From positions 1-32,053 of the forward strand of contig NZ_JAQVEJ010000016.1 in assembly GCF_028698005.1 (NCBI RefSeq): a stretch of DNA of 32,053 nucleotides, written 5' to 3'. The notes below the pieces were generated by a model, which was given only the letters and a program-made list of their open reading frames with translations, did no database searches and was not told the DNA's origin. Positions 1,685-19,533 of the stretch are shown here, in pieces; within the stretch, counting starts at the first letter, position 1, and each line of letters opens with the position of its first letter. A program made the translations under genes and the position numbers. The DNA is from Hydrogenophaga sp. (GTDB lineage: Bacteria; Pseudomonadota; Gammaproteobacteria; Burkholderiales; Burkholderiaceae_C).

Positions 1685-1700
1685 TGGCACATGGCTTGCT
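1685..1700 (+). promoter_or_regulatory. Sigma-54 (-24/-12) promoter motif at the kinase start
   Basis: TGGCAC-N5-TTGCT is a perfect match to the sigma-54 consensus, with GG at 1686-1687 and GC at 1698-1699. Transcription would begin near 1711, almost on the proposed kinase ATG at 1713. The transcript would then be leaderless, or translation would start at 1725 or further in. The match is strong but the placement is odd; activity is inferred. Confidence 0.55.
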
Positions 1701-1712
1701 TGCCCGGAGGGC

Positions 1713-2933: not shown

Positions 2934-3586
2934 CGACGATCCGGGTGCTGATCGGGGACGACCACCGCATCGTGCGCGAGGGGCTCAAGCAGGTGCTGGC
3001 CGACGCACCCGAAGTGCAGGTGGTGGCCGAGGCGCCGGATGGCGGGCAGGTGCTGGCGCAGGTGGAGGCGCTGGGCGGGCGGCAGGGACTGGAGCTGGTG
3101 CTGCTGGACGTGGCGATGCCGGGTCTGGACGGCATCGACGTGCTGCAGCGCCTGCGCAAGGCCCACCCGGATCTGCCGGTGCTCATGCTCAGCACCTACC
3201 CCGAGCGCCAGTACGCCGTGCGCTGCATCCGCATGGGGGCGGCGGGCTACCTGCACAAGAGTGCCGATCCGGACGACATGCTGGCGGCCGTGCGCAAGGT
3301 GGCCGCCGGCGGTGTCTTCGTGACGCCGGCCACCGCCGAAGCGCTGGTGTCGGCCGTGGGGCGCAGCGATGCCCGTGCCGGGCCGGAGGCGCTGTCGCAC
3401 CGCGAGCACCAGGTCTACCGTCTGCTGACCCAGGGACTGACCGTGACCGAAATTGGTGCGCAACTGGGGCTGGCGCCCAACACCGTGAGCACCTACCGCG
3501 CCCGGATTCTGGAGAAAACGGGCACCAAGAACGATGTGGAGCTGGCGATCTACGCCGAGCGCCACGCCAGACCCGCCGCCTTGTAG
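2930..3586 (+). CDS. NarL/FixJ-type response regulator
   Basis: The 218-residue product has a receiver domain (about 1-120) and a LuxR-type helix-turn-helix (about 152-210). Receiver acidic pocket D10-D11, phospho-acceptor D60 (LLLDVAMPG), T89-region switch residue and K110 (YLHKSA) are all present. The DNA-binding domain reads LSHREHQVYRLLTQGLTVTEIG and ends in a VSTYRARILEKTG recognition helix. It is coupled to the kinase by a 4-bp ATGA overlap and is almost certainly its partner. The downstream nrtA-like gene begins 128 bp later with its own sigma-54 motif. NarL-type regulators usually work with sigma-70, so if this one controls the cyanate genes, either a second promoter or an unusual arrangement is needed. 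The target is inferred from position. Confidence 0.93.
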   Translation: MTTIRVLIGDDHRIVREGLKQVLADAPEVQVVAEAPDGGQVLAQVEALGGRQGLELVLLDVAMPGLDGIDVLQRLRKAHPDLPVLMLSTYPERQYAVRCIRMGAAGYLHKSADPDDMLAAVRKVAAGGVFVTPATAEALVSAVGRSDARAGPEALSHREHQVYRLLTQGLTVTEIGAQLGLAPNTVSTYRARILEKTGTKNDVELAIYAERHARPAAL

Positions 3587-3664: not shown

Positions 3665-3680
3665 TGGCCCGTTGCTTGCA
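3665..3680 (+). promoter_or_regulatory. Sigma-54 promoter of the cyanate transport/cyanase operon
   Basis: TGGCCC-GTTGC-TTGCA matches the -24/-12 consensus with a single change, with GG at 3666-3667 and GC at 3678-3679. A second, weaker copy (TGGCAT-N5-TGGCC) starts 11 bp upstream, at 3654. The predicted start near 3691 leaves a short leader before the ATG at 3715. No convincing NtrC dyad is visible upstream. Confidence 0.65.
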
Positions 3681-3714: not shown

Positions 3715-5121
3715 ATGTCCGAGTTCTTCGATCCCTACAACGCCGACCGCCCCCTGATGATGAAGTGCAGTTGCGGGCGCGACCACCGTGCGGCCGACCA
3801 CCACGCGGAAGCCGCTGCCGACGAGGCCGCCCAGGTGCTGCGCCGGCGCAGCGAGAGCGCCGAGTTCGAGGCCTACAGCAACGCGTTCATCGAGGCGACG
3901 CTGGTCAAGGCCATCTTTCCGCATGACGCGCAGCGCCGCCGCTTCCTGCGGGCGGTCGGCAAGAACACGGCCATGGCGGCCATTGCCAGCGTGCTGCCGG
4001 TGGCAAGCCTGCAGGCCATGGCCCAGGAAAAACGCACGCTGGAAAAAACCGATCTGAAGATCGGCTTCATCCCGATCACCTGCGCGACGCCCCTGATCAT
4101 GGGCCACCCGCTGGGCTTCTACCAGAAGGAGGGCCTGAACGTCGAGGTCACCAAGACGGCGGGCTGGGCGCTGGTCCGCGACAAGGTGATCAACAAGGAG
4201 TACGACGCCTCGCACTTCCTCTCGCCCATGCCGCTGGCCATGAGCCTGGGGCTGGGCTCCACCGCGGTGCCCACCAATGTGGCGACGATCCAGAACATCA
4301 ACGGCCAGGCCATCACGATGTCGATCCGCCACAAGGACAACCGGGATCCGAAGAACTGGAAGGGCTTCAAGTTCGGCATCCCGTTCGATTTTTCGATGCA
4401 CAACTTCCTGTTGCGCTATTTCCTGGCCGAGCACGGCCTGAATCCCGACACCGATGTGCAGTTGCGCGTGATCGCGCCGCCGGAGATGGTGGCCAACCTG
4501 CGGGCCGGCAACATCGATGGCTTTCTGGGCCCCGACCCGTTCAACCAGCGCGCGGTGTATGAGGAGGTCGGCTATATCCACACCCTGACCAGGGATCTGT
4601 GGAACGGTCACCCCTGCTGCGCCTTCGGCACCACCACCGAGTTCATCCAGAAGCACCCGAACACCTTCGCGGCGCTGTACCGGGCGGTGCTGTCGGCAGC
4701 GGCCATGGCGCGCCAGCCCAGGAACCGCGAACTGATCGCCAAGGTGATTGCGCCGCCGCAGTACCTCAACCAGCCCGAGGTGGTGCTGCAACAGGTGCTG
4801 ACGGGCAAGTTCGCCGATGGCATGGGCAAGATCCAGAACGTGCCGGACCGGGCGGACTTCGACCCCATGCCCTGGCAGAGCATGGCGGTGTGGATGCTCA
4901 CACAGATGCAGCGCTGGGGCTACATCAAGGGCGACGTGAACTACCAGCAGATTGCCGAGAAGGTGTTCCTGATCACGGATGCCCGCAAGCACATGAAGGC
5001 GCTGGGCCAGGATTTCACGGCCGGGCCGGCGTATGCGAAGCACACCATCATGGGCAAGGAGTTCGATCCGGCCAGGGCCGCGGCCTACGCCCGGAGCTTT
5101 GCCATCAGCAAGGCGGGGTGA
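3715..5121 (+). CDS. NrtA/CmpA-family ABC substrate-binding protein (cyanate/nitrate), Tat-exported
   Basis: The 468-residue product is a periplasmic binding protein of the nitrate/bicarbonate/cyanate family (NrtA, CmpA, CynA). The mature domain starts around residue 110 (LKIGFIPITCATPLIMG) and carries family motifs such as GFYQKEGLNVEV and PEMVANLRAGNIDGFLGPDPFN. A twin-arginine signal, RRRFLRAVG at 74-82 followed by a hydrophobic stretch to about 103, indicates folded export through Tat. The 73 residues before it form an unusual pre-signal extension containing CSCGRDH (C18, C20, H24) and H29-H30, which looks able to bind a metal. The start has SD-like GAGG about 9 nt upstream. Linkage to cyanase favours cyanate as substrate, but nitrate or both cannot be excluded. 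Confidence 0.88.
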   Translation: MSEFFDPYNADRPLMMKCSCGRDHRAADHHAEAAADEAAQVLRRRSESAEFEAYSNAFIEATLVKAIFPHDAQRRRFLRAVGKNTAMAAIASVLPVASLQAMAQEKRTLEKTDLKIGFIPITCATPLIMGHPLGFYQKEGLNVEVTKTAGWALVRDKVINKEYDASHFLSPMPLAMSLGLGSTAVPTNVATIQNINGQAITMSIRHKDNRDPKNWKGFKFGIPFDFSMHNFLLRYFLAEHGLNPDTDVQLRVIAPPEMVANLRAGNIDGFLGPDPFNQRAVYEEVGYIHTLTRDLWNGHPCCAFGTTTEFIQKHPNTFAALYRAVLSAAAMARQPRNRELIAKVIAPPQYLNQPEVVLQQVLTGKFADGMGKIQNVPDRADFDPMPWQSMAVWMLTQMQRWGYIKGDVNYQQIAEKVFLITDARKHMKALGQDFTAGPAYAKHTIMGKEFDPARAAAYARSFAISKAG

Positions 5122-5125
5122 TGCC

Positions 5126-5995
5126 ATGAAGACACCGGACAGTCTGAACCTGCGCGCGGCGATCGTGTCGCTGCTGCTGCTGTTGTGCGTGGTGGGTGCC
5201 TGGCACCTGGCCACCACGGCCGGCGGTGGCGCTGCCGCGGTGACCGCCGGTCTCTCGGCCGACGAGATCGAGTACCTCAGGATGATGGGCAAGGACCCGG
5301 GGGCCACCAAGAGTGGCGGCTTTCCGGGACCGCTGGAGGTGGCCCGCACCAGCTGGGGCCACCTGTCGGATCCGTTCTACGACAAGGGGCCGAACGACAA
5401 GGGTATTGGCATCCAGCTGGCGCACTCGCTGGCGCGGGTGGGGCTGGGCTTCCTGCTGGCCCTGCTGGTGGCCATCCCGCTGGGCTTCGTGATCGGCATG
5501 TCGCCGCTGATGCAGAAGGCCTTCAACCCGTTCGTGCAACTGCTCAAGCCCATCAGCCCGCTGGCCTGGATGCCGCTGGCGCTCTACACCCTCAAGGACT
5601 CGGACGTCAGCGGCATCTTCGTGATCTTCATCTGCTCGATCTGGCCGATGCTGATCAACACGGCCTTCGGCGTGGCCTCGGTCAAGCGCGACTGGATCAA
5701 TGTGGCCGCCACGCTGGAAGTCAACCCGATCCGCAAGGCCTTCCAGGTGATCCTGCCCGCGGCCGCGCCGACCATCCTGACCGGCATGCGCATCAGCATG
5801 GGCATCGCCTGGCTGGTGATCGTGGCGGCCGAGATGCTGGTGGGCGGCACCGGCATCGGCTACTTCGTGTGGAACGAGTGGAACAACCTGTCCATCACCA
5901 ACGTGATCTTCGCCATCGGCATGATCGGTGTGGTCGGCATGCTGCTCGATCTGGTGTTTGCCCGGCTCCAGAAGGTGGTGACCTATGTGGAGTGA
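5126..5995 (+). CDS. NrtB/CynB-type ABC transporter permease
   Basis: The 289-residue inner-membrane permease belongs to the binding-protein-dependent transport family (BPD_transp_1). It has an N-terminal helix (residues 12-30), a soluble stretch to about 95, then a five-helix core. The cytoplasmic EAA-type loop is visible as AATLEVNPIRKAFQVILP, where the ATPase docks. The start at 5126 lies 4 nt after the stop of the binding protein, indicating tight coupling. The inserted stretch around ADEIEYLRMMGKDP is typical of the NrtB/CmpB subgroup. It should form the channel through which cyanate or nitrate enters, with the ATPase that follows. Length and motifs are normal for the family; no defects are seen. 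Confidence 0.9.
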   Translation: MKTPDSLNLRAAIVSLLLLLCVVGAWHLATTAGGGAAAVTAGLSADEIEYLRMMGKDPGATKSGGFPGPLEVARTSWGHLSDPFYDKGPNDKGIGIQLAHSLARVGLGFLLALLVAIPLGFVIGMSPLMQKAFNPFVQLLKPISPLAWMPLALYTLKDSDVSGIFVIFICSIWPMLINTAFGVASVKRDWINVAATLEVNPIRKAFQVILPAAAPTILTGMRISMGIAWLVIVAAEMLVGGTGIGYFVWNEWNNLSITNVIFAIGMIGVVGMLLDLVFARLQKVVTYVE

Positions 5996-6065
5996 CGAGT
6001 TCCTGCGCGCAGGCGCATCCCGTGTGGCCCCGGTGGCCACGCCACCCCAGCAGAAGGTAGCGTCG

Positions 6066-6863
6066 ATGTCTTCCGGATTCCTGAAGGTCGAGCGGCTGGC
6101 CAAGGCCTACCAGGCCGCCCGGCCCGTGTTTGCCGACGTGTCGTTCGAGATGGCGCGAGGCGAGTTCGTCTGCATCATCGGCCACAGCGGCTGTGGCAAG
6201 ACCACCATCCTGAACGTGCTGGCCGGTCTGGACACCGCCAGCAGCGGCCACGTGTTCATGGACGGCCGCGAGGTGGCCGGCCCCAGCCTGGAGCGTGGCG
6301 TGGTGTTTCAGGGCCATGCCCTGATGCCCTGGCTGACGGTGCGGCAGAACATCGCGTTCGCCGTCCGGTCGCGCTGGCCCGACAGGGGCAAGGACGAGGT
6401 CCGGTCCCAGGTCGAGAAGTATGTGGCCATGGTGGGGCTGTCGCACGCCATCGACAAGAAGCCCAGCGAACTCTCGGGCGGCATGAAGCAGCGGGTGGGC
6501 ATTGCCCGGGCCTTCTCGATCCAGCCCAAGATGCTGCTGCTCGATGAACCCTTCGGCGCGCTGGACGCGCTCACCCGCGGCACGATCCAGGATGAGCTGA
6601 TGGGCATCGTGCGCCAGACGCAGCAGACCGTCTTCATGATCACGCACGATGTGGACGAGGCCATTTTGCTGGCCGACCGCATCCTGCTCATGAGCAACGG
6701 CAGCGACACCGACAGCGGCTACCGGCCCGGTGGCCTGGTCGAGATGGTCGGCAACCCGCTGCCCCGCGAGCGCACGCGCGCCCAGTTGCACCACCTGGAC
6801 GGCTACTACGACCTGCGCAACCACATCGTGGACTTCCTCGTGTCCCGCGCCAAAGCGGCCTGA
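6066..6863 (+). CDS. NrtD/CynD-type ABC transporter ATP-binding protein
   Basis: The 265-residue ATPase has Walker A GHSGCGKTT (39-47), a Q-loop in VVFQGHALMPW, signature LSGGMKQ (136-142), Walker B LLLDE (157-161) and an H-loop in ITHDVDEA. It lacks the C-terminal NrtA-like domain found in NrtC, so it matches the short NrtD/CynD/SsuB-like form. I chose the ATG at 6066 because AGAAGG lies 8 nt upstream and homology begins at FLKVERLAKAY. An in-frame ATG at 5985 overlaps the permease end by 11 bp and would add 27 unremarkable residues; it also has a GAAGG upstream and cannot be ruled out. It powers the upstream permease and sits between transport and cyanase genes. Confidence 0.88.
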   Translation: MSSGFLKVERLAKAYQAARPVFADVSFEMARGEFVCIIGHSGCGKTTILNVLAGLDTASSGHVFMDGREVAGPSLERGVVFQGHALMPWLTVRQNIAFAVRSRWPDRGKDEVRSQVEKYVAMVGLSHAIDKKPSELSGGMKQRVGIARAFSIQPKMLLLDEPFGALDALTRGTIQDELMGIVRQTQQTVFMITHDVDEAILLADRILLMSNGSDTDSGYRPGGLVEMVGNPLPRERTRAQLHHLDGYYDLRNHIVDFLVSRAKAA

Positions 6864-6904
6864 CGATCTTTCTTCCTTTCTTCCCACCATCAAGAGGCAA
6901 CACC

Positions 6905-7348
6905 ATGACCCGACTCGCCGTCACCGAGAAGATCATTTCCACCAAAGTCAGCAAAGGCCTGAGCTGGGCCGACGTGGCCAAGAAAATCGGCCAGTCCAAG
7001 GAATGGACGACGGCCCTGTGCCTGGGGCAGATGACCGCCACCGCCGCCCAGGCCAAGGTGCTGGGCAAGATCTTCGGCCTGAGCGCCGAAGAGCAGAAGT
7101 GGCTGCAGGTGGTGCCCTACAAAGGTTCGCTGCCCACCAGCGTGCCGACCGATCCGCTGATCTACCGCTTCTATGAACTGATCAACGTGTACGGCACCAC
7201 CTTCAAGGAGCTGATCCACGAGGAGTTCGGCGACGGCATCATGAGCGCCATCGACTTCAAGATGGACCTCCAGCGCGAGAACGACCCCAACGGCGACCGC
7301 GTGAACATCGTCATGTCGGGCAAGTTCCTGCCGTACAAGCAGTACTGA
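6905..7348 (+). CDS. cynS: Cyanase (cyanate hydratase)
   Basis: The 147-residue enzyme converts cyanate and bicarbonate to ammonia and CO2 through carbamate. The catalytic triad maps to R88 (LIYRFYEL), E91 and S114 (GIMSAIDF), matching E. coli R96, E99 and S122 with a constant offset of 8. The N-terminal helix-turn-helix-like domain (SWADVAKKIGQSKEW) and the C-terminal dimer-forming domain (RVNIVMSGKFLPYKQY) are both complete. GAGG lies about 9 nt before the ATG. It is 41 nt downstream of the transporter ATPase and is very likely co-transcribed, so ammonia release couples to uptake. A GC-rich inverted repeat, GCCCGC 7349-7354 with GCGGGC 7361-7366, follows the stop but has no T-tract. Confidence 0.97.
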   Translation: MTRLAVTEKIISTKVSKGLSWADVAKKIGQSKEWTTALCLGQMTATAAQAKVLGKIFGLSAEEQKWLQVVPYKGSLPTSVPTDPLIYRFYELINVYGTTFKELIHEEFGDGIMSAIDFKMDLQRENDPNGDRVNIVMSGKFLPYKQY

Positions 7349-9395: not shown

Positions 9396-10340
9396 TCACT
9401 CCCGTTCCAGCTCCAGATACGTCCGGCTGGCGTTGCCCGGGTGCAGCTCGGCGGCGTTGAGCAGGCCCATCCAGGGTCGGGCGTCAAAGGCCTTGATGGC
9501 CGCGCTGATGTCCTGGCCTTCGTCCACGGCCTGTTGCATGTGCGCGCGCAAGGCCTTCAGGTAGTCACGCGTCTGTGCCCGGGCCAGGGGCAACTCGCAC
9601 ACCTGACCGTGGCCAGGCACGATGCGCGCTGGCTGCAGAGCCTCCAGCGCGGCAAAACTCTCCAGCCAGCGGCCGGTGTGGCTGACCGGGATCACGCCCA
9701 GCATGCGGTCCACATAGACGACATCGCCACTGAAGACCACGCGCTGCTGCGGCAGCCACACCATCACGTCGCCGGGCGTGTGCGCGCCGCCGCGGTGGAT
9801 GACCTGTACCGTGGTGCCCCCCAGGTTCAGACGCTCGTCGGTGCCGGTCAGCCAGCGCGTGGGCAGGGTGGGCACCGTGCCGTCGAGCTTTTCCTGGAGC
9901 GCGGGCGTGAGGGCTGCGATATGGTCGCCGCCGCGCGCCAGCATGTCGGCCTTGCCGTGGGCATGGGCGATCACCTCGGCCCCCTGCGCGGCAAAGTAGC
10001 CATTGCCCAGCCAGCGGTGATCCTGCCCGCCGGTGTTGATCACCCATTTGACGGGCTGGGTGGTCACCTGCGCGACCGCCGCATGGATCTTCCGGGCGCT
10101 CTGCAGGCTCGCGCCGCTGTCGATCAGCAGTGCACCGTCGGCCGTGACCACCAGACCGATGTTGGCGTTCAGGCCTTCGTTGTCATAGGTGCGGCCCGAT
10201 TTCTCTCCGATGAAAGCGTACAGACCGGGCGCGACCGGCTCGAAGCGGACCTCGATGGCGTGGGCCGACGCCGTGATGCCCAGCCACAGGGCAGCGGTCA
10301 GCACGGGCAGGGCGCGGCGGGTCAGGGGGGGCAGGGGCAT
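9396..10340 (-). CDS. Exported metallo-beta-lactamase-fold protein with altered metal motif
   Basis: The 314-residue protein begins with a signal peptide (basic start, hydrophobic 11-22, cleavage near ASAHA at 24-28). The MBL fold is recognisable by LLIDSGAS (72-79), GGAHTPGDV with H187, SGDVVYVDR with D206, and VPGHGQV with H244. The usual HxHxDH zinc motif is replaced by NTGGQDHRWLGN (102-113), keeping only D107 and H108 and missing the first two histidines. The relatives I recall are quinoprotein-associated zinc hydrolases (SoxH-like), but this is from memory. It may bind one metal, use other ligands, or be catalytically inactive. GGAGA precedes the ATG. It is convergent with the RlmN-like gene and divergent from the ABC operon. 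Confidence 0.85.
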   Translation of the reverse strand: MPLPPLTRRALPVLTAALWLGITASAHAIEVRFEPVAPGLYAFIGEKSGRTYDNEGLNANIGLVVTADGALLIDSGASLQSARKIHAAVAQVTTQPVKWVINTGGQDHRWLGNGYFAAQGAEVIAHAHGKADMLARGGDHIAALTPALQEKLDGTVPTLPTRWLTGTDERLNLGGTTVQVIHRGGAHTPGDVMVWLPQQRVVFSGDVVYVDRMLGVIPVSHTGRWLESFAALEALQPARIVPGHGQVCELPLARAQTRDYLKALRAHMQQAVDEGQDISAAIKAFDARPWMGLLNAAELHPGNASRTYLELERE

Positions 10341-10658
10341 GCACGTCTCCGGGGTTGTGTGTATCTCCCTCCAGTATGCACTTTCGCTGTGGCCAGCGCC
10401 GCACGCCAGCCGCCAGCGTCATCGCTTGTCAATCGCATTCAAGCCCGGACGACATCCTGAAGATGCCCTCGGCCCTGTGGCAGGCGGTGGCGCGCCGCCG
10501 GCGTCGGGGCGAGCGAGGACCTGCCCCCCTGGTGCCGATCGGGTGCTTCCCGCCCCACCTGGCAACCGCTGCCAGTGCCGTGGATTAGACTTGCCCTTTT
10601 GGGCTGCCCGGTGGGCCGCCCGTTTGTCCTTCTGCTGTCGAAAGAAAGAGATCCCCCC
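10341..10658. other. 318-bp intergenic stretch between MBL and ABC-operon genes
   Basis: It holds a coding remnant (10443-10495), a perfect 6-5-6 dyad CTGGCA-N5-TGCCAG (10559-10575), a possible -10 (TTAGAC near 10585), and GC-rich complementary runs (GCCC-TTTT-GGGC at 10593-10604, then TGCCCGG and GGGCCGCCC) that could fold alternatively. The last could act as an attenuator of the downstream ABC operon, but no T-tract terminator is visible. Confidence 0.4.
10443..10495 (+). pseudogene. Remnant or duplicate fragment of the 72-codon gene at 17737
   Basis: Fifty of 53 bases match 17825-17877, including wobble positions, and the encoded peptide PDDILKMPSALWQAVARR parallels PDEILKMPPALWQAVERA. 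Similarity stops on both sides: the flanking frame is arginine-rich and has no plausible start or SD, so this looks like a decayed copy. A functional micro-ORF (10355-10588) cannot be ruled out. Confidence 0.5.
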
Positions 10659-11630
10659 ATGCGCTTCACCTCGCTCTGGGCACCGATGGGTGCCGTTGCC
10701 CTGGCCGTCGCTGCCCTGGCCCCGGCCCAGGCCGCCGAAACCAAGTCGGTCGCCGTCACGGCCATCGTCGAGCACCCGGCGCTGGATTCGGTGCGCGACG
10801 GCGTGCAGGCCGCCCTCAAGGCCGCGGGTTTCGAGGCCGGCAAGAACCTGAAGTGGCAGTACCAGAGCGCCCAGGGCAACACCGGCACGGCGGCGCAGAT
10901 CGCGCGCAAGTTCATCGGCGACAAGCCCGACGCGATCGTCGCCATCGCCACGCCCTCGGCCCAGGCCGTGGTGGCGGCCACCAAATCGGTGCCGGTGGTG
11001 TTCTCGGCCGTGACTGACCCGGTCGCCGCCAAGCTGGTGGCCAGCTGGGAGGCTTCGGGCACCAACGTCACCGGTGTGTCCGATGTGCTGGCGCTGGACA
11101 AGCAGATGGAACTGGTGCGCCAGGTGGTGCCGCAGGCCAAGCGCGTGGGCATGGTCTACAACCCCGGCGAGGCCAACTCGGTGGTGGTCGTCAAGGAACT
11201 GCAGAAGCTCCTGCCCACCCTGGGCATGACCCTGGTCGAGGCCGCCGCGCCGCGCACCGTGGACGTCAGCAGCGCCGCCCGCAGCCTGGTGGGCAAGGTG
11301 GACGTGATCTACACCAACACCGACAACAACGTGGTGTCGGCCTACGAGGCGCTGGTCAAGGTCGGCCAGGATGCCAAGGTCCCGCTGGTGGCCTCCGACA
11401 CCGACTCGGTCAAGCGCGGCGCGATCGCGGCGCTGGGCATCAACTACCGCGATCTGGGCGAGCAGACCGGCCGCATGGTCGTGCGCATCCTCAAGGGTGA
11501 GCAGCCCGGCGCCATCAAGCCCGAGGTCAGCACCAAGGTGGAACTGTTCGTGAACCCCGGTGCCGCCGAGAAGCAGGGCGTCCAGCTCTCCGACGCGCTG
11601 GTCAAGTCCGCCGCCCAGGTCATCCAGTAA
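10659..11630 (+). CDS. TrpX-type ABC transporter substrate-binding protein (ABC_sub_bind family)
   Basis: The 323-residue protein starts with a Sec signal peptide (about 1-26, ending PAQAA). The mature two-lobe domain carries VAVTAIVEHPALDSVRDGV, IVAIATPSAQAVVAAT, PVVFSAVTDPVAAKL and GALAALGINYRDLG-like stretches typical of PF04392. This family includes TrpX of streptococci, an importer of tryptophan-related compounds; in betaproteobacteria the substrate is undefined. The ATG at 10659 is preceded by a purine-rich AAAGAAAGAG. The start directly opens the signal peptide. Permease and ATPase genes follow in the same direction (24 and 16 nt gaps), making a complete importer. No operator can be assigned, though the upstream dyad at 10559-10575 is a candidate. 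Confidence 0.9.
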   Translation: MRFTSLWAPMGAVALAVAALAPAQAAETKSVAVTAIVEHPALDSVRDGVQAALKAAGFEAGKNLKWQYQSAQGNTGTAAQIARKFIGDKPDAIVAIATPSAQAVVAATKSVPVVFSAVTDPVAAKLVASWEASGTNVTGVSDVLALDKQMELVRQVVPQAKRVGMVYNPGEANSVVVVKELQKLLPTLGMTLVEAAAPRTVDVSSAARSLVGKVDVIYTNTDNNVVSAYEALVKVGQDAKVPLVASDTDSVKRGAIAALGINYRDLGEQTGRMVVRILKGEQPGAIKPEVSTKVELFVNPGAAEKQGVQLSDALVKSAAQVIQ

Positions 11631-11654
11631 ACCGGGGCGCACCGGGCGTTTGCC

Positions 11655-12539
11655 ATGTCACTGTTTTCGCTGCTGGGGGCCGTCGAGATCGGCCTGATCT
11701 TCGCGCTCGTGGCGCTGGGTGTGTACATCTCGTTCCGCCTGCTGCGCTTTCCCGACCTGACGGTCGACGGCAGCTTCCCGCTCGGTGGCGCGGTATGCGC
11801 GGTGCTGATCGTGGCGGGGGTGAACCCCTGGCTGGCGAGCCTCGCCGCCGCCGCCGCCGGCGCGGTGGCGGGGCTGATCACGGGCTGGCTCAACGTCCGG
11901 CTCAAGATCATGGACCTGCTGGCCTCGATCCTGATGATGATCGCGCTGTACTCGATCAACCTGCGCATCATGGGCGGGCCCAACGTGCCGCTGATCACCG
12001 AGCCGACCATCTTCACGCAGTTGCAGCCCGAGAACATGGCCGACTACGTGCTGCGTCCGCTGGTGCTGCTGGTGATCGTGGTCCTGGCCAAGCTGGCGCT
12101 GGACTGGTTCTTCGCCACCGAGCGCGGCCTGGCCATCCGCGCCACCGGCTCCAACGCGCGCATGGCGCGCGCCCAGGGCATCCACACCGGTGCGATGGTG
12201 CTGCTGGGCATGGCGATTTCCAATGGGCTGGTCGGCCTGGCCGGCGCGATGTTCGTGCAGACCCAGGGCGGCGCCGACATCTCCATGGGCATCGGCACCA
12301 TCGTCATCGGCCTGGCGGCCGTGATCGTGGGCGAATCCATCCTGCCCTCGCGCCGCATCGTCTGGGCCACGCTGGCCGTGGTGGTGGGCGCGATCGTCTA
12401 CCGCTTCTTCATCGCCGCCGCGCTCAACAGCGACTTCATCGGCCTGAAGGCACAGGACCTGAACCTGGTCACGGCGGTGCTGGTGACCATCGCGCTGGTG
12501 ATCCCGCAACTCAAGCGCAAGCTGGCCGCGCGCCGCTGA
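11655..12539 (+). CDS. TrpY-type ABC transporter permease
   Basis: The 294-residue inner-membrane protein has about eight to nine helices and belongs to the BPD_transp_2 group, as used by branched-chain amino acid and sugar importers. Diagnostic stretches are LRFPDLTVDGSFPLGG near residue 30-45, RATGSNARMARAQGI in the cytoplasmic loop (about 160-178) and GLVGLAGAMFVQTQGGADISMGIG, all typical of permeases that pair with PF04392 binding proteins. The start is 24 nt after the binding-protein stop. No SD of normal strength is visible, so coupling is likely. It forms the membrane channel of the importer. Substrate is unknown. Confidence 0.9.
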   Translation: MSLFSLLGAVEIGLIFALVALGVYISFRLLRFPDLTVDGSFPLGGAVCAVLIVAGVNPWLASLAAAAAGAVAGLITGWLNVRLKIMDLLASILMMIALYSINLRIMGGPNVPLITEPTIFTQLQPENMADYVLRPLVLLVIVVLAKLALDWFFATERGLAIRATGSNARMARAQGIHTGAMVLLGMAISNGLVGLAGAMFVQTQGGADISMGIGTIVIGLAAVIVGESILPSRRIVWATLAVVVGAIVYRFFIAAALNSDFIGLKAQDLNLVTAVLVTIALVIPQLKRKLAARR

Positions 12540-12555
12540 CCGGAGGACATCTGCC

Positions 12556-13350
12556 ATGCTGAGCGCGCAGGACCTGCACATCACCTTCAACCCCGGCACG
12601 CCGATCGAGACCCGCGCCCTGCGCGGGCTGTCGCTGCACATCCCGGACGGCCAGTTCGTCACCGTCATCGGCTCCAACGGCGCCGGCAAATCGACCTTCC
12701 TGAACGCCGTCTCGGGCGACCTTGCGGTCGACAGCGGGCGCATCGAGATCTCGGGCCAGGACGTCACGCGCCTGCCGGTCTGGGAGCGTGCCCAGCGCGT
12801 GGCGCGCGTGTTCCAGGATCCGATGGCCGGCACCTGCGAAGACCTGACGATCGAGGAAAACATGGCGCTGGCCCATCGCCGCGGCGCGCGCCGCACGCTC
12901 GGGCAGGCCGTCAGGGGCCCGATGCGCGAGCTGTTCCGCGAGCGCCTGGCCATCCTGGGCCTGGGCTTGGAAAACCGCCTCAGCGACCGCATCGGCCTGC
13001 TCTCGGGCGGCCAGCGCCAGGCCGTGAGCCTGCTGATGGCGGCGCTGCAGCCCTCGCGCATCCTGCTGCTGGACGAGCACACCGCGGCGCTGGACCCGCG
13101 CACGGCGGACTTCGTGCTGCAACTGACCGCCCGCATCGTGGCCGAGAGCCAGCTCACCACGATGATGGTCACGCACAGCATGCGCCAGGCACTGGACGTG
13201 GGCGAGCGCACCGTGATGCTGCACCAGGGCCAGGTGGTGCTCGATGTCTCGGGCGAGGAGCGCGCCCGCATGGATGTGCCCGACCTGCTGCAGATGTTCG
13301 AGAAGGTGCGCGGCGAAAAGCTCGCCGACGACGCGCTGCTGCTGGGGTGA
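12556..13350 (+). CDS. TrpZ-type ABC transporter ATP-binding protein
   Basis: The 264-residue ATPase has Walker A GSNGAGKST (39-47), signature LSGGQRQ (149-155), Walker B LLLDEH (170-175) and an H-loop in VTHSMRQAL. The histidine right after the catalytic glutamate (DEHTAALDP) is a hallmark of the ATPases that pair with PF04392 binding proteins. GGAGG-like CGGAGGA lies 7-12 nt before the ATG. It completes the three-gene importer. A GC hairpin, GCCCGG 13388-13393 with CCGGGC 13401-13406, lies between this stop and the convergent rubredoxin gene, without a T-run. Confidence 0.93.
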   Translation: MLSAQDLHITFNPGTPIETRALRGLSLHIPDGQFVTVIGSNGAGKSTFLNAVSGDLAVDSGRIEISGQDVTRLPVWERAQRVARVFQDPMAGTCEDLTIEENMALAHRRGARRTLGQAVRGPMRELFRERLAILGLGLENRLSDRIGLLSGGQRQAVSLLMAALQPSRILLLDEHTAALDPRTADFVLQLTARIVAESQLTTMMVTHSMRQALDVGERTVMLHQGQVVLDVSGEERARMDVPDLLQMFEKVRGEKLADDALLLG

Positions 13351-13412: not shown

Positions 13413-14711
13413 TCAGCCCAGTGTCATCGGGCACGAGCTGGTCTTGACGCGCACCGCGGCGGGCCTGTGTGCATAGGGCACCGGGCAGGCGTCCGGTCCC
13501 GCGCCCTGGCGCCGTGCCACCAGCTTGGCGGCGATGGTGGCGGCCTGGCGGCCGATGGGCTCGATGTAGCGACTGGCCTGGCCCTCGATGGTGATGCAGT
13601 CGCCCAGCGCATGGATGCGCGGATGGCTGGTGGCCAGGGTGACGGGGTCCACCGCGATGCCCTGGCGCCATGTCAGACCGGCGCTGTCGGCCAGCCGGTG
13701 GGGGGTGGCCAGACCGGTGGCCGCGATCACCTGATCGACCTGCAGCACCTCGCCGCTGCTCAGGCGCAGGCGCTTGTGCTCGCCGGCCTCTTCCACCGCC
13801 GCCACGCCCACGCTGCCGATGAAGCGGATGGGCAGACCCTGCCACGCCCGCAGCGCGGTCTGTCCGGCACCCTGCGCCTGCCAGCGCGCCAGCGGCTCGG
13901 GTTGCGGGTCGATCAGGCTGACCCGGCAGCCGGCCAGCGCCAGGTCGTTGGCCAGCTCGCTGCCGATCAGGCCCGCGCCCACGATGGCCACGTGGGGCGA
14001 CATGCCCGCGGGCCACACACCGGTGTCCGGCAGGCCCAGGCTCTCGCGCAGCCGCCGGTAGGCGTCCAGGTGGTTGATGCGCCAGCACAGCTCGGCCGGC
14101 AGGGCGGGGGGCAGGGCCACCTGCGCGCCGTGCGCCAGCACCAGCTCCGAGAAGGGCAGGGTGCCGCGTGTGGTGCTCAGCGTCAGGGTGCGCGGGCAGA
14201 TGCGGGTGGCCTGCGTCCGGGCCATCAGGCGCACGCCCAGGCGCTCGGCCGCCTCGGCACCGGTCTCGCGCACCAGGCTGTCCATGGCCAGGCGCCTGGC
14301 CAGCGCCACCGACAGCAGCGGCTTGTCGTACACGTCGGCCGCGCAGCCGCTGACCAGGGTGATCGGCAGCGCCGCGTCCAGCGCGCGCAGCGCCTCGGCC
14401 ATGGCCCAGCCGGCACGTCCGCCGCCCACGATCACCACCCCCGGCGCCGCTTTGCCTGCCACGCGGGGCCCGGCCGCGGCCGTGCGTGGTGCCGCACCCG
14501 CCGCCGGGCGCACCGGCGGGGTATAGGGCGAGAAGTCCGCCTTGGTCACCTGGCACAGCGGACAGGCCCAGTCATCGGGAATGTCCTCGTAACGGGTGCC
14601 CGGTGCCAGCCCGCTGTCCGGGTCGCCCTTGGCCTCGTCGTAGATCCAGCCGCAGGCGTGGCAGATGTACTGGCGGTACGGGATGGGGGGCTCGGCGGCG
14701 GGGCTGGACAT
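13413..14711 (-). CDS. Rubredoxin fused to FAD-dependent rubredoxin reductase
   Basis: The 432-residue protein has an N-terminal rubredoxin domain (about 14-63) with iron ligands C17, C20, C50 and C53. A proline/alanine linker follows, then a pyridine-nucleotide reductase with an FAD motif VIVGGGRAG (93-101), an NAD(P)H motif [14 protein letters not shown] (241-254) and the second FAD contact IHALGDC. It is an AlkG-AlkT type fusion, able to pass electrons from NAD(P)H through FAD to its own iron centre. The ATG at 14711 has GGAG upstream and starts just before the rubredoxin domain; longer readings enter the neighbouring gene. It is last in the minus-strand operon, 26 bp after the acyl-CoA-dehydrogenase-like gene, so it may serve as electron partner to that flavoprotein or scavenge oxygen species. 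Confidence 0.92.
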
Positions 14712-14737
14712 GGGCGGGCTCCGGTGCGGATCGGGTT

Positions 14738-15874
14738 TCAGGCGGGCAGGGTGTCGGCGCACAAGGCGGCCACTTCCTTGCGCAGGTGCTTGATGGCCGG
14801 TGTGACGATGGCCACGAACTGCGCTTCGCGCACACGGCGCTGCACGTCCGAGCTCATCAGGTAGCCGCGCGCGCCCTGGTGCATCAGCGCCGAGTTGGCC
14901 GCGCGCAGGCACAGTTCGCCGCCGGCCAGGCGGGCACCGAGCACATCCAGGAAGTAGGCCTCCGACGTGTCGTAGGGCGTCTCGGCCAGGCGGGCCACCG
15001 TGGCCAGCAGGTCATCGAGCTCGGCCTGCAACTGGTCGGGCCGGTCGTCCAGATACTGGTTCACGTGGCCCAACTGGTCTTCCACCCGCCACATGCTGTC
15101 GATGGCGCCCTGGGTGATGCCGGCCGCGATGCCGCACTGCAGCAGCACGAAGGCAGCCCGGATGCGGCGGATGTAGGGCCGGCACGGATCGGCCACGATG
15201 TCCCCGGCGCCGATCACCAGGTCCTTGCACTGCACGGCGTAGGTCCCCGTGCCCTCCATGCCCGAGAACCTGGGGCAGGGCTTGAGCGTGACGCCGGGCG
15301 CATCGCAGTGCAGCATGAACATCACCTCGCGGCCCGGTTCTCCTTCGACCGCGGCCACCGCGCCAAAGTAATGCCCGGCCGCCAGGTTGCTCACCCACGG
15401 CAGCGTGCCGTTGATGCGGTAGCCGCCGTTCACCGGCGTGGCCCTGAGCAGCAGGTTCTCGATCTGTGCGAAGCACTTCATCGGGTTGGACATGCCGGTG
15501 CCGCCCAGCGTGGCGCCGCTGAGGTGGCGCTGCAGGCGCTCGCCGTGCAGCGCCTCGTTGTCGGAGGCGTCCATGTACAGCGCGGCCGCCGCCTGGGCCC
15601 ACATCATGAAGGCGGTGGCACCGCACACCTTGCCGGCCTCGGCCATGGCCGCCATCGCGTCCATGTAGCTGCCGGGCCGCCCCGGCTGGTCGATGTGCGC
15701 GCTCATCGCGCCCACGGCGCCCAGGGCGTGCAACAGGTCGGCCGGATAGGCGCCTTCGTCGATGGCCTGTGCGCGTTCGGCCAGCGGGCCCTGGGCGATG
15801 GCGCGCACGGCGGCCAGCAGGTCTTCGGTGCGGGTGGCGGCAGCCACGTCGGTGGGCATGTCAGCGACGTTCAT
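14738..15874 (-). CDS. Acyl-CoA dehydrogenase-fold flavoprotein, substrate unknown
   Basis: The 378-residue protein has the three-domain acyl-CoA dehydrogenase layout: helical N-terminus (about 1-120), middle beta domain with [10 protein letters not shown] and [10 protein letters not shown] typical of flavin-binding loops, and C-terminal helices ending in a [19 protein letters not shown] stretch. The fold also serves DszC/SfnB-like monooxygenases that attack organic sulfur compounds, and the rhodanese and OsmC neighbours make such a role as likely as fatty-acid oxidation. I cannot place a catalytic glutamate with confidence. CAGGAGT precedes the ATG at 15874. It lies 24 bp after the OsmC-like gene and 26 bp before the rubredoxin fusion in one transcription direction. 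Specific function is not assigned. Confidence 0.82.
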
Positions 15875-15898
15875 GGGGGGGACTCCTGCGATGGGGCT

Positions 15899-16456
15899 TC
15901 AGGCCATGGAAATGGTGAAGGGCACGGGGTTGCGGATGGTGTTGGCCACCGGCGAGTAGAAGTTGGCGTGCTGCACGATCTCCTCCAGCACCTCGCGCGG
16001 GGCATCGCCTTCCACCAGCACCTTCACCCGCACGGCCTGAAAGCCCATCTGCGGTGGCGTCATCTCCAGCGCGCCACCGGCGCCCCAGGCAGCGGGGTTG
16101 CCGATGTCGCCCTCGAGAAACACCTCCAGCCGGCTGAGCTTCACGCCCTTCCAGGTGGCCACGGCCGTCACGCCCACGGCAATGCAGCCACCCAGGCCCG
16201 AGAGCACGATCTCGCCCGGCGCCGGCGCGGTGTCCTGCCCGAACAGGTGCAGCGGCTCATCGACCACCACGGTGTGCTTCTCGCCCACGTGCGAGATCGA
16301 GCGGTACTGCCCCTCCATCACGGTGTGGACCTTGTTGGTGCCGCGGCGGTCCGGGTTGGCCTTGCCGGCGGCGGCGAACGCGGCCAGGCCCTGGCCATCG
16401 ATGGGGCGCAGGCAGGTCTTGACGGTGGTGACGGGGTCGAGGGTATCGGTGGTCAT
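15899..16456 (-). CDS. OsmC-like protein lacking the second cysteine
   Basis: The 185-residue protein has the OsmC/Ohr fold. The first active cysteine is C91 in LSGLGGCIAVGV. The usual second cysteine of the Cys-Pro-Val motif is serine: FYSPVANTIRNP places S168 there. A two-cysteine peroxidase cycle is therefore unlikely; it may use an external thiol or bind a thiol compound instead. GGAG lies 6-9 nt before the ATG at 16456; a TTG at 16474 in frame is a weaker alternative. It is 44 bp downstream of the rhodanese gene and 24 bp upstream of the flavoprotein gene. OsmC-like proteins next to rhodaneses often handle sulfur carriers, which fits, but no substrate is visible. Confidence 0.87.
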   Translation of the reverse strand: MTTDTLDPVTTVKTCLRPIDGQGLAAFAAAGKANPDRRGTNKVHTVMEGQYRSISHVGEKHTVVVDEPLHLFGQDTAPAPGEIVLSGLGGCIAVGVTAVATWKGVKLSRLEVFLEGDIGNPAAWGAGGALEMTPPQMGFQAVRVKVLVEGDAPREVLEEIVQHANFYSPVANTIRNPVPFTISMA

Positions 16457-16500
16457 GGAAGCTCCAGGGTTCAAGGAAAAAAAGAGAAAAGGTCAGGGGA

Positions 16501-17385
16501 TCAGGCGGCCAGCGGCAGCGGTGCGGGCGCCACCAGGGCGGGCAGGCCGGACTCGATGGGCAGGCCGGGGTCGCGCGACCATTCGTTCCACGAGCCGAAG
16601 TACATGCGCACATCGGCAAAGCCGGCCTGCTTGAGTGCCAGGAAGGTGTTGGACGCGCGCGCGCCCTTGAAGCAGTACAGGTAGATGGTGTCGGTGGGCG
16701 TGATGCCGGCGGTGGCGCACTCGGCCTTCACCTCGTCGGGCGACTTGAACACCGGACCGGTGGCCGAGGGCTTCATGAAGCGGTACCACTCGATCCATTT
16801 GGCGCCCGGCAGCCGGCCCTTGCGCGGGGCAAAGTCCTTGCCATAGGGGCTGGAGCTTTCGCCGATCCACTCGTCCACATCGCGCACGTCCAGCAGCACG
16901 GTACCCGTGCCCAGTGCCGCCAGCACGTCGGCCCGCGTCAGCATCACGCCGGTCAGGGGTCGGTCCGGGAAGCTGGCGGGGGTGGGCGTGGCGGCCTCGG
17001 TGGACACGGGCAGTCCCGCCGCCTTCCAGGCCGAGAAACCGCCGTTGAGTACCTTGACCTTGGGGTAGCCCAGCCAGGTGAGCAGGTAGTAGCCCCGGCA
17101 CGACTGGCCGTAGCCGCTGTTCATCGCGTCCTCGTAGAAGACGGCGGTTTCGGCACCGGACAGGCCCGCATCGCCCAGCGCCCTGGCAAAGGTGGCCTTG
17201 AGCTCCTGCAGACCCTCGGGCGTGGATGTGGCCAGAAAGGTGAAGATCTCGCGCAAATTGACCGCGCCGGGGATGTGGCCCGCCGCATAGGTGTCCGCGT
17301 CGCGGGTGTCGATGACGACCACCGGTTCGGCGGCCTGCAGGGCAGCGAGCTGCTCGGGAGACATCAGGATGGCTTCAGTGCTCAT
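16501..17385 (-). CDS. Two-domain rhodanese-family sulfurtransferase
   Basis: The 294-residue protein has tandem rhodanese domains (about 5-125 and 145-290). The catalytic cysteine is C238 in the loop CFKGAR of the second domain; the first domain lacks a cysteine loop, as is normal. The loop resembles CRKGVT/CGTGVT of thiosulfate and mercaptopyruvate sulfurtransferases only in part, so donor specificity cannot be read off. AGAGG precedes the ATG at 17385. It is the first gene of the minus-strand operon and lies about 37 nt after the predicted sigma-54 transcription start. No signal peptide is seen, so it acts in the cytoplasm. Probable role is moving sulfane sulfur to or from a partner in the same operon. 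Confidence 0.9.
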   Translation of the reverse strand: MSTEAILMSPEQLAALQAAEPVVVIDTRDADTYAAGHIPGAVNLREIFTFLATSTPEGLQELKATFARALGDAGLSGAETAVFYEDAMNSGYGQSCRGYYLLTWLGYPKVKVLNGGFSAWKAAGLPVSTEAATPTPASFPDRPLTGVMLTRADVLAALGTGTVLLDVRDVDEWIGESSSPYGKDFAPRKGRLPGAKWIEWYRFMKPSATGPVFKSPDEVKAECATAGITPTDTIYLYCFKGARASNTFLALKQAGFADVRMYFGSWNEWSRDPGLPIESGLPALVAPAPLPLAA

Positions 17386-17432
17386 GGGGACCTCTGAATC
17401 AGGGCAAAGGCAAGATCGCCTGGGCCCTGTAT

Positions 17433-17448
17433 CGCAACCGCCGTGCCA
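17433..17448 (-). promoter_or_regulatory. Sigma-54 promoter of the rhodanese operon
   Basis: Read on the minus strand, TGGCAC-GGCGG-TTGCG matches the -24/-12 consensus with only the last base off. Transcription is predicted to start near 17422, giving a leader of about 37 nt before the rhodanese ATG. Confidence 0.78.
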
Positions 17449-17476
17449 GGGTGGCGGTCGGCCCGGCCGGTGAGAG

Positions 17477-17489
17477 AAATTGCTTGATT
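17477..17489 (-). promoter_or_regulatory. IHF-like site between promoter and enhancer dyads
   Basis: Minus strand AATCAAGCAATTT matches WATCAANNNNTTR at all but the last base, inside an AT-rich patch (17470-17510) that stands out in this GC-rich DNA. It is placed about 30 bp upstream of the -24 element, as expected for DNA bending at sigma-54 promoters. Confidence 0.5.
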
Positions 17490-17559
17490 TGATTGAAGTT
17501 TTTCCCGGTTTCTGTGGCGGGATTCGATGCCGTCCGGCGACGGGGGCCTGACATTTCGT

Positions 17560-17632
17560 TGACACAATGTCGACACATGGTCGGATCACAGCGCCCCGCT
17601 GCGAGGGGGACCAGAATCGGCGACACTTGTCG
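17560..17632. promoter_or_regulatory. Cluster of three CGACA-type dyads, candidate activator sites
   Basis: Three related partial inverted repeats are visible: TGACA-CAA-TGTCG (17560-17572), CGACA-CATG-GTCG (17571-17583 region) and CGACA-CT-TGTCG (17621-17632). They lie 110-185 bp upstream of the -24 element of the rhodanese operon, the normal range for upstream activator sites of a sigma-54 enhancer-binding protein. The nearby activator gene is the obvious candidate to bind them. The rest of the 351-bp gap between 17385 and 17737 has no further recognisable element. Confidence 0.45.
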
Positions 17633-17736
17633 GCAGTTGCCTCACACCCGTGGCGAAGCGCGGCACATCCGTGGCCGCCGTGCATGCCGGCCCGCGGGTG
17701 GATCGCCCGCCCTGCCGCACGCTGACCGGAGCCCCC

Positions 17737-17955
17737 ATGAAAACCATCGACGAAATGCTCCACCTGGAACTGCTGACCGCCGACCAGCACCGCCAGATCA
17801 GCGCCTGGATCGCCCGGGCCAACGGCCCGGACGAGATCCTGAAGATGCCCCCGGCCCTGTGGCAGGCGGTGGAGCGCGCCAGCGCCGTCATGGGCATTGA
17901 CGACGATCTGCTGCGCCCGCCCGCGATGGATGCGGGGGGGCTGGTCTGCGGGTGA
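17737..17955 (+). CDS. Small conserved-looking hypothetical protein, 72 aa
   Basis: I do not recognise this family. The 72-residue product starts MKTIDEMLHLELLTADQHRQ, is predicted mainly helical, acidic in its first half, with no signal peptide or membrane segment. The segment PDEILKMPPALWQAVERA is repeated nearly base for base at 10443-10495, which supports a real coding sequence. GGAG lies 6-9 nt before the ATG. It is transcribed away from the rhodanese operon and converges with the sigma-54 activator gene (6 bp between stops), so it lies between the operon and its presumed regulator. It might be a small partner of that regulator; nothing in the sequence proves this. Confidence 0.65.
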   Translation: MKTIDEMLHLELLTADQHRQISAWIARANGPDEILKMPPALWQAVERASAVMGIDDDLLRPPAMDAGGLVCG

Positions 17956-17961
17956 ACCGCC

Positions 17962-19533
17962 TCAGCGCAAACCCGCCTTGCGCAACCGGTAGCTGAACTG
18001 CCGCAGCGTCAGCCCCAGGCTTTGCGCGGCGCGCGACTGGTTGCCGTGGTGCAGGGCCAGGGCCTGGGCCAGTTGGCGGGCGTCGTGCGAGTGGGCGCTC
18101 AGATAGTCGCGCACCAGCGGGGCCTCGGGGGCCCCCGGGGCCACCGCCAGGGGGGCGGAATGGGCGGCGTCGGACAGAGGGTGGGTGTCGGGCAGGAAGC
18201 GGCCCAGATCGTCGGCGTGCACCACCGGCTGATCGGCCAGCAGCACCAGGCGCTCGACCACGTTGCCCAGTTCGCGGATGTTGCCCGGCCAGTCCAGCCG
18301 TTCCAGCCGCTGCAGGGCGTCGGCGGCCAGGTGCACGTTGCGCTGGTGGGCCTGGTTGGCCCGGTTCACGAAATGCAGGGCCAGGGCGCGGATGTCTTCG
18401 CGGCGCTCGCGCAGGCTGGGCAGCCGGATCGGCACCACGTTCAGGCGGTAGTACAGGTCCTGCCGGAAGCGGCCCGCGGCGGCCTCCTGCGCCAGATCGC
18501 GGTTGGTGGCGGCCACCAGCCGCACGTCGATGCGGATTTCGCGCTGGCCGCCCAGGCGCACCAGGGTGCCCTCCTGCAGGGTGCGCAGCAGCTTGGCCTG
18601 CATGGCCAGTGGCAGTTCGCCGATCTCGTCCAGAAAGATGGTGCCGCCGTGCGCCTGCTCGAACCAGCCGGGCCGCGCCTGCGTGGCGCCGGTGAAGGCG
18701 CCACGTTCGTGGCCGAACAGCTCGGACTCGAACAGCGTGTCCGGAATGGCCGAGCAGTTGACCTTGATGAAGGGCTGGTCACGGCGGCCGCTGGCCAGGT
18801 GCACGGCGCGCGCGAACAGCTCCTTGCCCGTGCCCGACTCGCCCAGCAGCAGCACCGTGGCCTGCGACTGCGACACGCGCTCCAGTTCGCCCAGGGCCTG
18901 CAGCAGCGCGGGGGAGCGGCCGATCAGGCCGTAGCGGGCGCTGGCGCTGTCCAGGGCACGGGCCAGGGCCTCGTTGCGCGCCTGCAGTTGCGCGGTTGTC
19001 GCCTGCACCAGGCGTTCAAGCTGCAGCAACTGGCCGGTCAGTGTGGCCAGGGTGCGCAGCACCGCCAGGTCATCGGTCAGGCGCCGGCGCCGGCTGCGGA
19101 TGCGATGGCAGGCCAGCACGCCGGCCACGCGGCCGTCCACCTCGATCGGCAGGGCCAGGAAGGCGACGGTGTCCGCGGGCAGCTGTTTGCGCCGCACACT
19201 GCGGAACAGAAACAGCGGCTCGGCGTCGATATCCTGCACGATGATGGCCTGACCGCTGGCCAGCACCCGCCCGGTGATGCCTTCGCCCGGTGCGTAGCGG
19301 CCGCGCCGGCGCTCGGCCGCCGTCAGCCCGTAGGCCAGCCGGATGCCGGCCTGCTGGCGGTCGTCGTCGTCCACCAGCACGATGCGGCCCCGGTTCAGGC
19401 CCAGCAGCTCGCTCATCAGGTGCAGCATCTCGTGCAACACCGGCTCGGGCGAGAGGCTGCGACCGACGCGCTTCATCACCTCGTGCAACAGCAGGAGTTC
19501 CTGGGCATGCCAGTCAACGGTGGCGGGTGTCAT
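17962..19533 (-). CDS. Sigma-54-dependent activator, NifA-like GAF-AAA+-HTH
   Basis: The 523-residue product has a GAF sensor domain (about 28-175), a coiled linker, a central AAA+ domain with Walker A GESGTGKE (231-238), sigma-54 contact loop GAFTGA (278-283) and Walker B in [17 protein letters not shown]-type helix-turn-helix sits at the end ([21 protein letters not shown]). The domain order is that of NifA/FhlA-type enhancer-binding proteins, so it senses a small molecule rather than a phosphate. I chose the ATG at 19533, where homology begins; longer in-frame readings run through the metH riboswitch and are unlikely. No strong SD is seen. Its closeness to the sigma-54 promoter and dyads at 17433-17632 makes the rhodanese operon its likely target. 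Confidence 0.9.

Follow-up and report, generated by a model that had tools for sequence, protein, structure and literature searches.

The stretch analyzed here, hereafter the window, comprises 32,053 nt of a Hydrogenophaga sp. contig (NZ_JAQVEJ010000016.1) and carries a minus-strand operon of four genes, encoding a rhodanese, an OsmC-like protein, a flavoprotein with the acyl-CoA dehydrogenase (ACAD) fold, and a rubredoxin fused to a reductase. The operon and the features upstream of it are as follows.

13413-14711, minus strand: rubredoxin fused to a NorW-like FAD/NAD reductase (RubRed; Pfam Rubredoxin and Pyr_redox_2, NCBIfam)
14738-15874, minus strand: ACAD-fold flavoprotein without the catalytic glutamate (Pfam, structure model, alignments)
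15899-16456, minus strand: OsmC-like protein with a single invariant cysteine (Pfam OsmC, alignment)
16501-17385, minus strand: two-domain rhodanese with the loop CFKGAR (Pfam, two rhodanese stretches)
17434-17448, minus strand: sigma-54 promoter TGGCACGGCGGTTGC, without mismatches, 63 nt upstream of the rhodanese ATG
17559-17573, no strand: palindrome TTGACACAATGTCGA, a candidate enhancer site 125 bp upstream of the sigma-54 box
17737-17955, plus strand: 72-codon open reading frame (ORF) with no family match in Pfam or NCBIfam
17962-19533, minus strand: NifA-like activator with GAF, Sigma54_activat, and HTH_8 domains (Pfam)

The four genes run in the same direction with gaps of 44 bp (rhodanese/OsmC), 24 bp (OsmC/flavoprotein), and 26 bp (flavoprotein/RubRed), which, together with the Pfam domains of their products, bears out the tight packing of redox and sulfur-handling genes recorded in a preliminary description of this DNA. 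Relatives belonging to many genera carry the same gene set. Loci were gathered by flavoprotein similarity, from the best 80 of 579 confirmed matches and the matches of a genome search, and the resulting 146 loci were dereplicated at 93% flavoprotein identity to 95, among which Burkholderiales are over-represented; the 73 loci flanked on each side by 6.5 kb or more form a full-flank set, from which the other 22 were left out. An OsmC gene lies within 300 bp upstream of the flavoprotein gene at 85 of the 95 loci and an AhpD-like gene at 6; across the loci the two are mutually exclusive (OsmC at 87, AhpD-like at 6, neither at 2). A rubredoxin, either fused to a reductase or alone, is encoded within 300 bp downstream of the flavoprotein at 83 loci, and a rhodanese gene is adjacent at 51, either before OsmC or after the flavoprotein. 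The preliminary description had staked its proposal on linkage conserved in relatives and had paired the rubredoxin and reductase with the flavoprotein, and the OsmC and rubredoxin counts sustain both points. To judge from gene order, the rhodanese-OsmC-flavoprotein-rubredoxin/reductase operon is a conserved unit. Its distribution is patchy: counting paralogues, flavoprotein matches with E-values of 1e-30 or lower occurred in 41 of 299 genomes sampled from the family and 20 of 398 from the phylum.

The box TGGCACGGCGGTTGC has the GG (-24) and GC (-12) elements of a sigma-54 promoter ahead of the operon. The window contains no other perfect match, and 0.05 matches are expected from dinucleotide shuffles (5 of 100 shuffles contained one). 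One of the 95 loci had too little upstream sequence and was left out of the promoter and palindrome counts (n = 94). A box matching at least 10 of 11 positions preceded 72 of the 94 operons, compared with 45 of 1880 random windows, and mostly stood 48-117 nt ahead of the first start codon; the source genome has an rpoN gene. These figures uphold the earlier proposal of sigma-54 control with a neighboring activator. The palindrome TYGACA-N3-TGTCRA, with at most one mismatch (at least 11 of 12 positions), was found at 40 of 62 activator loci, 4 of 32 activator-less loci, and 28 of 1880 random windows, mostly 100-160 bp further upstream than the sigma-54 box. Because it was first spotted in the window and a few relatives, this enrichment is partly circular, and with the seeds removed it was found at 40 of 90 loci at the level of at least 11 of 12. 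The palindrome is the natural candidate for the enhancer site of the GAF activator. The activator was found at 65 of the 95 loci at 50% identity or more, and it scores under the NCBIfam cut-offs for NifA and NorR. At some loci, including named alphaproteobacterial plasmids, a TetR-type gene lies beside the module in place of the activator.

About 6 kb from the operon, the window also contains a cynABDS cluster (3715-7348, plus strand) for a cyanate-type ATP-binding cassette (ABC) importer and cyanase.

3665-3679, plus strand: sigma-54-like box TGGCCCGTTGCTTGC, 50 nt upstream of cynA
3715-5121, plus strand: CynA/NrtA-type substrate-binding protein (SsuA family, below cut-off; cynABDS-like gene order; a plasmid relative is annotated as CmpA/NrtA family)
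5126-5995, plus strand: CynB/NtrB-type permease (TIGR01183, 218.3 bits, cut-off 209.05)
6063-6863 (open frame from 5985), plus strand: CynD/NtrD-type ATPase (TIGR01184, 289.4 bits, cut-off 291.8)
6905-7348, plus strand: CynS, cyanase (NF002773, 228.8, cut-off 150; TIGR00673, 175.6 bits, cut-off 113.3)

Partners of this kind were frequent in the relatives. Among the 95 loci, cynS was found at 49, a CynA-type binding protein at 49, and either of them at 61; in the full-flank set, cynS was found at 39 loci and either gene at 50. These counts use cynS and the binding proteins only; CynD matches were left out, as they include the ATPase of a second importer described below. The cyn genes are convergent, divergent, or co-directional with the module at different loci, and this variation in order indicates that the linkage was kept through rearrangement. 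At 20 of 42 loci tested, cynA had a sigma-54 box of its own (at least 10 of 11 positions) in front of it, in many cases with the spacing seen in the window. Three of 148 sampled Pseudomonadaceae-type genomes carried the activator at 64-66% identity; in two of these, activator, OsmC, flavoprotein, RubRed, CynA, CynB, and CynD stand in a single row, and in the third the set lies on a contig that ends inside OsmC, with the activator on another contig. Plasmids carry comparable arrangements: Marinobacter shengliensis pMAD49a has an ABC importer, a sigma-54 regulator, OsmC, an 'acyl-CoA dehydrogenase', an 'FAD-dependent oxidoreductase', and cynS, and an Acetobacter ascendens plasmid has OsmC, flavoprotein, rubredoxin, and cynABDS in one direction, plus a sigma-54 regulator.

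Genome content followed the same pattern. In the family sample, cynS was present in 30 of 38 genomes with a flavoprotein orthologue and in 93 of 261 others, and in the phylum sample in 13 of 16 and 55 of 382, respectively; genomes with only a 29-33% paralogue (three in the family sample, four in the phylum sample) were counted among the others, and moving them over gives 31 of 41 and 14 of 20. Gene neighborhood and genome content thus both tie the module to cyanase and an ABC importer of the cyanate type. The preliminary description had read the operon as a sulfur-redox system; its conserved, regulated module stands, but the cyanase and transporter linkage, which it had missed (50 of 73 full-flank loci), points to nitrogen assimilation from cyano compounds, not to a general sulfur-redox system. 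As an explanation of the operon, a role at the entry to cyanate assimilation is preferable to a sulfur-redox system standing by itself.

Public records annotate the flavoprotein as an acyl-CoA dehydrogenase. Its match to Pfam Acyl-CoA_dh_N (E 3e-8) is over the cut-off and that to the middle domain below it; its AlphaFold model (mean confidence, pLDDT, 95.1) shows the ACAD fold. Among solved structures, Foldseek placed it closest to short-chain acyl-CoA dehydrogenases (SCADs) and their kin, with TM scores of 0.70-0.84 and 16-20% identity in the 50 best hits (approximately 0.8 for the best hits, which were SCADs). The place of the catalytic glutamate, which in SCAD-type enzymes we take to sit in the motif IYEGT, is occupied by Thr358, and by Thr in 51 and Ser in 2 of the 53 aligned proteins (of 93 listed); in this placement, the HMMER alignment ends at the RDA/REA anchor and the last residues were extended ungapped by hand. 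The replacement makes acyl-CoA dehydrogenation unlikely, and a canonical acyl-CoA dehydrogenase was rejected on this ground. Residues Cys84, Trp92, Ser129-Asn130, Lys133, Trp160, Ser162, and Gln246 are invariant in all 53 proteins. The flavoprotein falls below the curated cut-off of all four NCBIfam models that it matched, among them 3-sulfinopropionyl-CoA desulfinase (NF042439, 37.6 bits, 600 needed) and the sulfur acquisition oxidoreductase SfnB (TIGR04022, 19.3 bits, 430.9 needed). Because a rubredoxin and its reductase are encoded directly after the flavoprotein, electrons most likely enter the flavin, and the protein would hence be an oxygenase.

The other products of the operon have conserved features of their own. 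Cys91 of the OsmC-like protein is invariant in 87 of 87 aligned rows, and no other column of this alignment has cysteine in more than 30% of the rows; the protein lacks a second conserved cysteine of the kind found in OsmC/Ohr peroxidases, which have two, the second being the resolving one. In the rhodanese, both Cys96 and Cys238 are conserved (51 of 51 aligned rows). The iron-binding cysteines C17, C20, C50, and C53 of the rubredoxin, which matches PF00301, were present in 75 of 75 rows, and the reductase part of RubRed is a pyridine nucleotide-disulphide reductase nearest to NorW (182.6 bits, cut-off 392).

The importers at the 95 loci were alternatives to each other: the CynA type occurred at 49, another SsuA/NrtA-type binding protein at 12, and both together at none. 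The binding protein of this second importer was first read from the Marinobacter plasmid, and six of its 12 loci, or their kin, carry an AhpD-like protein in place of OsmC. On the Marinobacter plasmid and at locus L105, cynS stands alongside the second importer with no CynA match in the stretch examined, which suggests that cyanate is made inside the cell in these two systems. Ten distant relatives of the flavoprotein (26-32% identity; L112-L116, L148, L149, and L264-L266, including Roseomonas, Variovorax, and Synechococcus plasmids) mostly lie in an AhpD-like/flavoprotein/SsuA-type ABC arrangement, with an AhpD-like gene beside eight and the second binding protein beside eight. No rubredoxin match was found near the ten, and no cyanase match around those with this arrangement, in the stretches read. 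The combination of AhpD-like protein, flavoprotein, and SsuA/NrtA-type importer may represent an earlier version of the system. In Synechococcus 7942, one of these relatives (29%) is plasmid-borne, with cysK three genes before it; this plasmid is taken to be the one that PMC8049743, in the part concerned, describes as carrying many sulfur-related genes.

Several individual loci had unusual compositions. At L109, an AhpD-like gene precedes and a rubredoxin gene follows the flavoprotein copy. In a genome of another class, a family 2A encapsulin shell gene (L110:6273-7220) adjoins an OsmC-flavoprotein-ABC module. A Rhizobium plasmid (L262:3917-8573) carries three-part cobalt nitrile-hydratase-like genes with CbtA/CbtB and an OsmC 68% identical to that of the window, and had no flavoprotein match; a search of the source genome for a nitrile hydratase alpha-type subunit, as a sign of a thiocyanate hydrolase or nitrile hydratase route, gave no match, although the control set also matched nowhere. 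Two Neisseria gonorrhoeae records in PLSDB (NZ_CP119140.1 and NZ_CP119142.1), listed as plasmids and chromosome-sized at about 2.17 Mb, contain a 43% relative of the flavoprotein.

Further features of the window lie beside the two clusters. A PAS histidine kinase and a LuxR-type response regulator (1503-3586) stand immediately before the cynA promoter, and a similar pair, identified by eye, precedes cynABDS at L250 and L251, where the flavoprotein module had no match. In many relatives, cynS directly follows RubRed in convergent direction, unlike in the window, where the stretch between cynS and the operon (9396-13350) contains a metallo-beta-lactamase-fold protein, whose nearest models are SoxH-related quinoprotein relay models and score below cut-off, and a second ABC set. 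The 72-codon ORF, restricted to close relatives of the window, has homologues with 73-85% identity at 8 of 20 loci (L031-L034, L041, and L046-L048) and is for that reason likely to be a true gene. Among the 95 dereplicated loci it turned up at just 7, in either orientation relative to the activator, and its membership of the wider module was rejected. The gap between the activator or this ORF and the rhodanese gene (17386-17736 in the window) resembles an insertion hotspot. Of 11 stretches read, six carried clear inserts:

L031:11495-13723
L033:1776-5532
L034:2975-5477
L036:10593-12576
L046:10790-12376
L048:1520-5344

The gene sets of these inserts differ, and some look defense-like by eye; with such varied contents, they were dismissed as functional parts of the module.

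We propose, with about even confidence, that the operon is a nitrogen-scavenging pathway for cyano compounds, in which thiocyanate, or as a second choice cyanide, would be converted to cyanate and the cyanate split by cyanase. Electrons from NAD(P)H would pass through the fused reductase and the rubredoxin to the flavoprotein, which would use O2 to oxidize its substrate, most likely thiocyanate, to the cyanate level. One possible route would lead via a flavin peroxide to hypothiocyanite, which the single cysteine of OsmC could capture as Cys-S-SCN; water would then free cyanate and leave a persulfide on OsmC. The rhodanese might hand this sulfur on, or might convert cyanide to thiocyanate and so feed the same route, and cyanase would break cyanate down to NH3 and CO2. 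Through the palindrome, the GAF activator would turn the operon on under sigma-54. Thiocyanate leads as the substrate, without certainty: the single cysteine of OsmC, the OsmC gene beside the Rhizobium nitrile-hydratase-like genes, and the encapsulin at L110 lean toward it, and the cysK gene near the distant Synechococcus relative also counts for the proposal.

Several observations weigh against this proposal. No cynS was seen in the stretch examined at 46 of the 95 loci, 14 of the 73 full-flank loci had neither cynS nor the binding protein of either importer, and 8 of the 38 orthologue-bearing genomes in the family sample had no cynS match. The gene is also common without the module (the 93 of 261 family genomes given above), and the co-occurrence counts ignore phylogeny. 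Only one of the 12 loci with the second importer has cynS nearby, so the product need not be cyanate at all loci. The rhodanese gene is not adjacent at 44 of the 95 loci, which weakens the case for an essential sulfur step; being optional, the rhodanese may mark an auxiliary one. Genes of the cytochrome bd or cyanide-insensitive-oxidase type near L111, L155, and the Roseomonas locus L265 lean toward cyanide, and we know of no precedent for an ACAD-fold enzyme fed by rubredoxin.

These oxidase-type genes also favor the alternative, which we regard as unlikely, that the flavoprotein is a cyanide monooxygenase that oxygenates HCN directly, by peroxide addition and loss of water to give HNCO, with cyanase completing the pathway, rhodanese serving as a parallel detoxification, and OsmC as protection against peroxide. 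A cyanate product suits the cyanase linkage, rhodanese detoxifies cyanide, and the conversion of cyanide to cyanate by a monooxygenase appears in pathway charts (PMC5778177), although the relevant part of PMC11049912 presents this enzyme as proposed and not experimentally demonstrated. However, HCN needs no importer, and neither the OsmC gene of 85 loci nor the cysK neighborhood of the distant relative is needed for cyanide. It is less probable still that an organic cyano or organosulfur compound (nitrile, cyanohydrin, isothiocyanate, or sulfonate) is imported by an SsuA/NrtA-type system and oxidized, with cyanate as a by-product in some lineages. The distant relatives, with their AhpD-like protein, flavoprotein, and SsuA-like ABC genes, and the Rhizobium plasmid, with its nitrile-hydratase-like set, would fit such a substrate, but the frequent cyanase linkage would not, and the neighbor tally (99 of 280 candidate ORFs), led by TetR_N (8) and Radical_SAM (5), contained no amidase, nitrilase, or sulfonatase among the 25 families listed of 95.

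That the module makes no cyanate and instead repairs cyanate or peroxide damage during cyanate use seems very improbable. Elsewhere, members of the OsmC and AhpD families act as thiol peroxidases, but the OsmC here is without a second conserved cysteine, and cynS is often found without the module, not only in the family sample but also in the cynABDS clusters L248-L251. A true acyl-CoA dehydrogenase side pathway, lying near the cyn genes by chance, agrees with the public annotation and the fold; with the catalytic glutamate missing in 53 of 53 proteins, a rubredoxin gene adjacent, and the association with cyn genes kept through rearrangement, it is scarcely credible.

Returning to the oxidation of thiocyanate or cyanide, the module is a concrete candidate, complete with regulator and promoter, for the proposed step to cyanate, and it occurs in culturable strains and on plasmids. 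More tentatively than the pathway itself, we suggest that the operon might be the first genetic system for an O2-dependent flavoprotein that receives its electrons from rubredoxin and forms cyanate out of thiocyanate (or cyanide). In heterotrophic proteobacteria this system would serve nitrogen assimilation, and a one-cysteine OsmC would carry the sulfur. It might belong to a wider, perhaps older family, made up of AhpD-like protein, flavoprotein, and SsuA/NrtA-type importer and dedicated to scavenging small cyano or sulfur compounds. If true, this would add a pathway for the removal of cyanide and thiocyanate, assign a function to a branch of proteins that currently bear the acyl-CoA dehydrogenase annotation, and extend rubredoxin to a new use.

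In the open-licence literature, subscription papers lying outside the search, we found no description of the rhodanese/OsmC/flavoprotein/rubredoxin gene combination. Heterotrophs use thiocyanate as a nitrogen source, for which the part of PMC5328954 dealing with them gives no enzyme. The thiocyanate dehydrogenase pathway of Thioalkalivibrio has the same overall step as that proposed here, from thiocyanate to cyanate and sulfur; its enzyme, treated in sections of PMC5778177 and PMC5328954, is a copper protein working with cytochrome c (PMC5778177), whereas a flavoprotein and rubredoxin are proposed here. The closest known system is cynFABDS of Pseudomonas pseudoalcaligenes CECT5344, with which, going by the relevant part of PMC6627978, the window shares the cyanate ABC importer, a cyanase (TIGR00673 in the window), a sigma-54 promoter before cynA, a sigma-54 activator, and nitrogen control. 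The activator gene is divergent from cynA there, as it is at some of our loci. A cynFABDS-type locus, L272, has gltD-like and hemE-like flanks by eye, as described for CECT5344, and its 10-kb stretch gave no match to the rhodanese, OsmC, flavoprotein, or rubredoxin. Both L272 and L103 encode a CynF-like protein, used here as a stand-in for CynF of CECT5344; these proteins are of the PAS type, whereas the window activator has GAF; only the central domain aligns with the L272 protein (47%), and an identification of the activator as CynF was rejected.

The flavoprotein shares its fold and N-terminal Pfam domain with the acyl-CoA dehydrogenase superfamily, including SCAD (2vig) and 3-sulfinopropionyl-CoA desulfinase (5ahs), but differs from it in having Thr or Ser in place of the catalytic glutamate and a rubredoxin partner. 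In NorV/NorW and AlkG/AlkT, as here, a rubredoxin is combined with an FAD reductase; the proposed terminal partner in the present system is an ACAD-fold protein.

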